Shown here: positions 2,648 through 5,611 of the stretch, in pieces
How the letters are laid out: each line of letters starts with the position of its first letter
How positions within the stretch are numbered: the stretch's first letter is position 1
NCBI RefSeq assembly: GCF_003932955.1
Contig: NZ_QOVY01000003.1
Coordinates: 62,001 to 126,000, forward strand
Origin: Chryseobacterium sp. SC28
GTDB taxonomy: Bacteria > Bacteroidota > Bacteroidia > Flavobacteriales > Weeksellaceae
DNA length: 64,000 nt
Direction of reading: 5' to 3'
Translations under genes and position numbers: made by a program
Notes under the pieces: generated by a model
Told to the model about the DNA's origin: nothing
Databases searched by the model: none
The model's input: the letters and a program-made list of their open reading frames with translations, nothing else

Positions 2648-2677
2648 AAAAAAAACCGACTGATTACTCAGACGGTT
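2648..2677 (-). terminator. his attenuator terminator hairpin
   Basis: On the minus strand a 10-bp stem with one T-T mismatch (AACCGTCTGA / TCAGTCGGTT, loop GTAA) is followed by a run of T, a classical intrinsic terminator. It lies between the leader peptide stop codon and hisG, where an attenuator should be. Its 5' arm contains CCGTCTG (2675-2669), the exact complement of CAGACGG at 2719-2713 inside the leader reading frame. The terminator and an antiterminator are therefore mutually exclusive. Confidence 0.85.
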
Positions 2678-2701
2678 TATATTTTTAGAAGTTATGACCT
2701 A

Positions 2702-2767
2702 TCACGACCTTCCCGTCTGCGCGAGGAAATGGTGATGATGATGCATAAATTGTGTGGTCATTTTCAT
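2702..2767 (-). CDS. hisL: his operon leader peptide (21 residues, five consecutive His codons)
   Basis: A 22-codon frame (ATG at 2767, TGA at 2704-2702) encodes a 21-residue peptide with the run MHHHHHF at residues 8-14. It starts about 13 nt downstream of a TAnnTTTG promoter box and ends 24 nt before a terminator hairpin. This is the layout of a histidine attenuator. A ribosome stalled at the His codons (2743-2729) leaves CAGACGG (2719-2713) free to pair with the terminator arm and allow read-through. A ribosome reaching the stop codon would cover it. The sequence features are seen directly; the mechanism follows the known enterobacterial his and trp attenuators. Confidence 0.85.
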   Translation of the reverse strand: MKMTTQFMHHHHHFLAQTGRS

Positions 2768-2779
2768 ATTTTGGTTTAG

Positions 2780-2787
2780 CAAATGTA
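2780..2787 (-). promoter_or_regulatory. his operon promoter, -7 element
   Basis: TACATTTG on the minus strand matches the Bacteroidota -7 consensus TAnnTTTG exactly. No clear TTG sits at the usual -33 distance. The expected start of transcription is about 7 nt before the leader peptide ATG. Confidence 0.6.
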
Positions 2788-5443: not shown

Positions 5444-5551
5444 TAGGAGCTTAATCCCGCTATCCGTTGCAATCTTTTTTGCATCCCGTTTTGTCATCAA
5501 AAAGATCGGTAAGTCCACGCAAAAAAGGATTTCCACTACTATCGGGGCTAT
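5444..5551. repeat. Imperfect long inverted repeat in the intergenic region
   Basis: Left arm 5456-5482 (CCCGCTATCCGTT...CTTTTTTGC) and right arm 5519-5547 (GCAAAAAAGGAT...CTATCGGGG) are imperfect reverse complements separated by 36 nt. The strongest match is the run TCTTTTTTGC / GCAAAAAAGGA. It begins just after the transporter stop codon and could act as an RNA hairpin at the transcript end. The form resembles dispersed non-coding repeats I associate with flavobacterial genomes; copy number cannot be judged from one window. Confidence 0.5.
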
Positions 5552-5611
5552 GGGTTTGGTCATCCCAATCACGTTTTTAGATAATTTAACATTTAAAAAA
5601 AATGCAAAATT

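Follow-up and report, generated by a model that had tools for sequence, protein, structure and literature searches.

In the 64,000-nucleotide stretch of DNA analysed here (the window), the control region of the his operon is best explained as a ribosome-mediated transcription attenuator supplemented by a second layer, in which a downstream segment, designated arm 5, can pair either with the terminator or with the start of hisG; we place the probability of this explanation as a whole at about 0.72.

All elements of the attenuator listed in the earlier note, i.e. the -7 box, a 21-residue frame with five His codons, the CAGACGG and CCGTCTG arms and an intrinsic terminator, were read in the window at correct coordinates (Table 1). 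Arms 2 and 3 are exactly complementary, with a duplex strength that was matched by about 0.5-2% of shuffled sequences, and the terminator stem is broken by one U-U mismatch. Downstream, hisG and hisD, both identified by NCBIfam equivalog matches, overlap, and past the left edge of the window (L196) are six more ORFs, whose initial residues led us to name them hisC, hisB, hisH, hisA, hisF and hisIE.

Table 1. Features of the his control region in the window
Feature	Position	Strand	Sequence or basis
Sigma-A-type -7 box	2787-2780	minus	TACATTTG; sequence; predicted transcription start 2775
First, non-conserved leader frame (ATG AAA ATG ... TGA)	2767-2702	minus	MKMTTQFMHHHHHFLAQTGRS, 21 residues
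His leader peptide gene from conserved ATG 2761	2761-2702	minus	MTTQFMHHHHHFLAQTGRS; stop codon 2704-2702
Five consecutive His codons (CAT CAT CAT CAC CAT)	2743-2729	minus	Sequence
Protector hairpin, His codons with segment past leader end	2748-2692	minus	Predicted fold
Arm 2 (CAGACGG), antiterminator 5' arm, within leader frame	2719-2713	minus	Sequence and covariation
Arm 3 (CCGTCTG), terminator 5' arm and antiterminator 3' arm	2675-2669	minus	Sequence and covariation
Arm 3 plus terminator loop	2673-2664	minus	GTCTGAGTAA
Intrinsic terminator hairpin (arm 3 with arm 4)	2677-2654	minus	AACCGTCTGA-GTAA-TCAGTCGGTT; -12.5 kcal/mol; covariation
Terminator U-run	2655-2648	minus	Sequence
Arm 5	2627-2616	minus	GTTTACTCAGAC; pairs with arm 3 and loop, or alternatively with hisG start
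hisG start, complement of arm 5	2599-2590	minus	ATGAGTAAAC; predicted hairpin -9.5 kcal/mol
hisG, ATP phosphoribosyltransferase	2599-1742	minus	TIGR00070 and TIGR03455 above cut-off
hisD, histidinol dehydrogenase	1745-450	minus	TIGR00069

Transcripts of F. johnsoniae begin 4-5 nt past a -7 box with the consensus TAHHTTTG, the G of which is located at -5 (PMC6847099), and the position reported for the F. psychrophilum box, -12 to -5, agrees with this spacing (PMC9723704). The box in the window fits the consensus, and transcription is predicted to start at 2775, with 4 nt between box and start, the spacing found in F. johnsoniae. Relative to this predicted 5' end, the ATG at 2767 is located at 8 nt and the ATG at 2761, six bases further on, at 14 nt. 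The former is private to the window and loci L008 and L047, i.e. to two lineages, and in an alignment of 14 close relatives, in which it is present only in the window and L008, the ATG at 2761 was shown to be invariant and preceded by AAA. Furthermore, a box could be recognised in 62 members of the window's family, and in these the distance from the box to the first start codon was 12-23 nt, mostly 18-19 nt. Since the conserved ATG lies 14 nt in and the start codons of the family mostly 18-19 nt past the box, the leader 5' UTR is short yet, judging from these sequences, the mRNA is not leaderless. The description of this leader as near-leaderless in the earlier note was thus based on the first ATG rather than on the conserved second one, and the class of leaderless mRNAs, in which the start codon is situated within a few nucleotides of the 5' end, was rejected on the same grounds. 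The conserved start is preceded by an A-rich 5' UTR of 14 nt, with an A at -3; as the absence of a Shine-Dalgarno sequence and an A-rich start context are the norm across the phylum (PMC6847099), the claim that initiation must work differently is not supported as a feature of this particular leader. Start codons closer to the box were observed in two other families: in family f4 (L076-L086 and L160), the ATG of the His leader is mostly located 4-10 nt after the -7 box and is nearly leaderless, unlike in the window's family, while in family f24 (L186-L192 and L197-L209, probably Bacteroidaceae), which is represented by leader frames with dispersed His codons, a GTG or ATG is found 3-5 nt after the box, i.e. 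at the predicted 5' end (leaderless), in 16 of 17 leaders.

For a comparison across Bacteroidota, DNA upstream of hisG was collected from named genomes, 100 further Bacteroidota genomes and search loci, and a leader was defined as a frame in which four or more codons within a span of six encode His. His-rich leaders were identified in 158 of 196 upstream regions, compared with 0.75 expected from shuffles and one on the reverse strand, and in 143 of 181 following removal of identical sequences (where chance would give about 1). Of these 143 unique leaders, 124 were accompanied by a terminator of at most -8 kcal/mol and 107 by an antiterminator at shuffle p <= 0.05, while arm 2 was correctly spaced from the His codons and the stop codon in 121 of 122 cases. 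With a looser threshold of three His, all 71 upstream regions of the window's family (71/71) contained a leader, so that the His run is retained in relatives, as are the complementary arms, which covary (see below).

Several leaders in this sample exhibited a different architecture. No strong intrinsic terminator was found in family f24, in which the stretch preceding hisG is C-rich and G-poor (0.24 versus 0.09) and could suit Rho. The leaders of family f3 (L177-L180, L182, L184, L211 and L212) contain a hairpin that encloses the stop codon (e.g. ATCGCC...GGCGAT) and no clear terminator. Those of family f8 (L072, L074, L075 and L079) end in HHFHHSS; here, too, the stop codon lies in a hairpin, and the structured, G+C-rich sequence that follows contains no terminator and was without an Rfam match. 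In a Pyrinomonadaceae MAG labelled Acidobacteriota (L026), a Bacteroidota-like hisG (63% identity) is preceded by the His-rich frame MKTTNFTLQTLHHHWHDSHHAD, indicative of either transfer or misbinning. Two loci labelled Chryseobacterium gleum and Candidatus Kuenenia (L018 and L020) possess the same leader, terminator and arms as a Flavobacteriales MAG (L021) and are probably misbinned.

The earlier note had proposed a search for covariation in the two alternative stems, and both were shown to covary. In an alignment of 53 non-redundant Flavobacteriales-type sequences (A2), the terminator was 93.6% paired, with 60 double-change cells compared with 22.7 after shuffling, and the antiterminator was 77.6% paired, with 19 double-change cells compared with 8.6; when one or the other stem was displaced by 1-3 columns, pairing fell below 50%. 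In a tree-aware test, branches of the hisG tree with a change on both sides of a stem were compared with expectation. For the terminator, 17.0 such co-changing branches were observed against 2.2 expected (17.0 pair to pair), and for the antiterminator 8.1 against 1.6 (5.1 pair to pair).

Folding was modelled with assumed ribosome footprints on RNA made up to arm 3. For the window, stalling of the ribosome at His codons 1-4 gave a modelled antiterminator probability of 0.99 and stalling at His codon 5 one of 0.84, whereas a ribosome positioned on the stop codon reduced it to 0. Without a ribosome it was 0.12, because in the predicted fold the His codons pair past the leader end and thereby hide arm 2. 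Values above 0.5 in the stalled state and below 0.1 at the stop codon were obtained in the model for 120 of 124 unique leaders, compared with 31 of 124 shuffled controls. Once arm 4 is present, the terminator was always favoured at equilibrium in the model, and the decision would therefore be kinetic, as in known attenuators. Under histidine scarcity, the leader ribosome would halt on the His codons, allowing arm 2 to pair with arm 3, which would block the terminator and let RNA polymerase enter hisG. With ample histidine, the ribosome would proceed to the leader stop codon and mask arm 2, upon which arms 3 and 4 would form the terminator. In the absence of a ribosome, the His codons would pair downstream and likewise mask arm 2, making termination the default.

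The region thus combines a His-rich frame preceding hisG-hisD, mutually exclusive covarying stems and a footprint geometry that operates in the model, and on this basis it is almost certainly a ribosome-mediated transcription attenuator. The leader frame is short, and it might be untranslated and fortuitously His-rich, lying upstream of a merely constitutive or Rho-type terminator; this is extremely improbable given that such frames occur in 143 of 181 upstream regions against about one by chance, that the spacing between the -7 box and the conserved leader start is constant, and that arm 2 is positioned correctly relative to the His codons and stop codon in all but one of the 122 cases.

The ribosome-stalling his attenuator of the earlier note accordingly stands with respect to its arms, His run and terminator, which are conserved and covarying with a working geometry; the account ended at the terminator, however, and arm 5 was missed. 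Arm 5, separated from hisG by 16 nt, reads as the reverse complement of the terminator 5' arm and loop. A significant duplex between arms 3 and 5 was detected in 77 of 90 Flavobacteriales-type loci (67 of these at p <= 0.01), compared with 2 of 34 others, with a median distance of 16 nt from the end of arm 5 to hisG. No convincing arm 5 was found in some Flavobacteriales loci (e.g. L104, L106, L158, L161, L166 and L175). Native partners paired with -12.2 kcal/mol, as opposed to -8.3 kcal/mol for foreign partners, and none of 5000 permutations reached as low a value (0/5000). In an alignment of 66 sequences built blind to structure (A3), arms 3 and 5 were 94.0% paired, with 51 double-change cells compared with 16.4 after shuffling, and on the hisG tree 16.9 co-changing branches were observed against 2.3 expected (14.5 pair to pair), a covariation as strong as that of the terminator itself. 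Bases of the terminator loop, which are dispensable for the hairpin, also join the pairing with arm 5, the variants GAGUAA, GAACAA, GAGUACA, GAGACAA and GAAUAAA each being accompanied by their own arm 5.

The repeats involved (GTCTGAGTAA, TTACTCAG and ATGAGTAAAC) are short, occur in inverted orientation and are situated towards the promoter-proximal end of the operon, as might be expected of DNA operator half-sites for a regulator. Such an operator would hold one sequence, whereas the copies change jointly and in a complementary manner between clades, including in the terminator loop; moreover, the spacing of the half-sites is variable, as is the gap between terminator and hisG. The operator interpretation was therefore discarded on the basis of covariation and is considered very unlikely. 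The pairing of arm 3 with arm 5 is, from these comparisons, very probably real and under selection; the pairing is well supported, and we infer its function.

The same genome carries a second attenuator upstream of trpE (L216, minus strand), consisting of a Trp leader frame, MKSMNTNNWWWLSYSLSGLKGLSVF, a terminator of -11.7 kcal/mol and a U-run, in which no segment resembling arm 5 was seen by eye. When a further attenuator was sought at ilvD, this gene was found to be absent from the genome (99.98% complete), which suggests a branched-chain amino-acid auxotrophy.

Arm 5 may have a further partner at the beginning of hisG. In this pairing, GUUUACUCA is complementary to UGAGUAAAC in the window, forming the hairpin listed in Table 1, and the segment is able to pair with the start codon of the first gene, with modest tree support. 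The pairing was significant in 53 of 90 Flavobacteriales-type loci compared with none of 20 outside this group, and was 87.3% paired, with 40 double-change cells compared with 16.0 after shuffling. The excess on the hisG tree was modest (9.2 co-changing branches against 4.4 expected), and because this tree-aware excess is smaller, the pairing between arm 5 and the hisG start is graded as likely, not proven.

In the model, arms 3 and 5 paired with a probability of 0.99 when hisG was not yet made and arm 4 was kinetically excluded. With hisG present, the pairing of arm 5 with the start was favoured at equilibrium in every modelled state (0.96-0.98), and the ON state would therefore have to be kinetic. 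In antiterminated RNA, free arm 3 would capture arm 5 before hisG emerges, leaving the hisG start open, while in RNA slipping past a formed terminator, in which arm 3 is locked, arm 5 would be free to hide the start. This co-transcriptional order, with arm 5 captured first in antiterminated RNA, would fit the fold numbers. We infer the kinetics and the direction of the translational effect in this scheme, as well as the transcription start and the ribosome positions. A translational lock of this kind, in which the hisG start would be concealed by arm 5 except where arm 3 has captured this segment, is proposed here and has roughly even chances of being correct.

It is also possible, if somewhat doubtful, that the region is a plain classical his attenuator in which arm 5 only hinders refolding of the terminator or shapes and stabilises the read-through mRNA, the match to hisG being a by-product. 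The tree signal, which is stronger for arms 3 and 5 (16.9/2.3) than for arm 5 and the hisG start (9.2/4.4), would be in line with this. Conversely, a match between the hisG start and arm 5 is restricted to the same clades (53/90 versus 0/20) and tracks the changes between clades, GAGUAA occurring with AUGAGUAAA, GAACAA with AUGAACAAA and GAGUACA with AUGAGUACA. In addition, the first base of arm 5 (G or A), which is not part of the arm 3 core, varies in step with the first base of a hisG Leu codon (CUN/UUA), a mostly synonymous site (16 G-C and 27 A-U combinations). For the two-layer reading in its full form, in which the terminator 5' arm and loop have three alternative partners and mimic the hisG start, constituting a two-level attenuator in Flavobacteriales, arguments for and against are about equally weighted.

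The element in the window shares with enterobacterial hisL (RF00514, His_leader) a short leader peptide with a His run before hisG, an alternative antiterminator and terminator, and a protector pairing that favours termination if the leader is untranslated; unlike hisL, it is devoid of a Shine-Dalgarno sequence and is preceded by a sigma-A -7 box. To our knowledge, arm 5 and the link to the hisG start are absent from the enterobacterial hisL model. No match to RF00514 was obtained in the window at the gathering or a relaxed threshold (up to E = 5), other relaxed matches being judged to be due to chance, and five relatives scored 28-34 bits compared with the gathering score of 49; the element works like a his leader, yet falls outside the Rfam RF00514 model. 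The leader peptide was without a match in Pfam. Elsewhere in the window (5449-5553, minus strand), a Flavo-1 RNA (RF01705, 74.5 bits), a motif without an assigned function, was detected.

Two layers on one leader are also found in the Bacillus subtilis trp leader (TRAP), which combines transcription attenuation with a hairpin hiding the translation start of the first gene; in that leader, however, sensing is carried out by a protein, and the terminator arm itself is not known to be a competitor for the anti-start segment. The his attenuators of the Bacillus cereus group, Eubacteriales and Erysipelotrichales are Shine-Dalgarno based. In Bacteroidetes/Chlorobi, attenuators were reportedly predicted by Vitreschak et al. 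in 2004. The predicted his attenuators of the former three groups, which belong to another phylum, precede his operons and encompass leader peptides with three to five consecutive His codons and alternative hairpins, with no arm from terminator to hisG start described in the parts of that report covered here (PMC9413887). In F. psychrophilum, structure and transcription maps provided strong clues to leader-peptide attenuators preceding amino-acid biosynthesis operons, representing the same kind of operon control in the same phylum, with neither his details nor a further arm in the main text (PMC9723704). Because leader-peptide attenuation of amino-acid operons has been reported in that species, the attenuator layer is already known in kind. 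No description of an arm joining the terminator and the hisG start was found in the openly accessible main texts searched.

The analysis provides a detailed account of a his attenuator that extends across a phylum devoid of Shine-Dalgarno initiation, which implies coupling between transcription and leader translation in these organisms, and a conserved arm probably ties its terminator to the start codon of the first gene. Since the structure and context surrounding the start modulate translation in this phylum (PMC6847099), arm 5 would be an economical second lock. If this holds, a single ribosome-stalling decision would determine both whether transcription terminates and whether the hisG start is accessible, with no protein or ligand involved, and two-level attenuation in Bacteroidota becomes testable.
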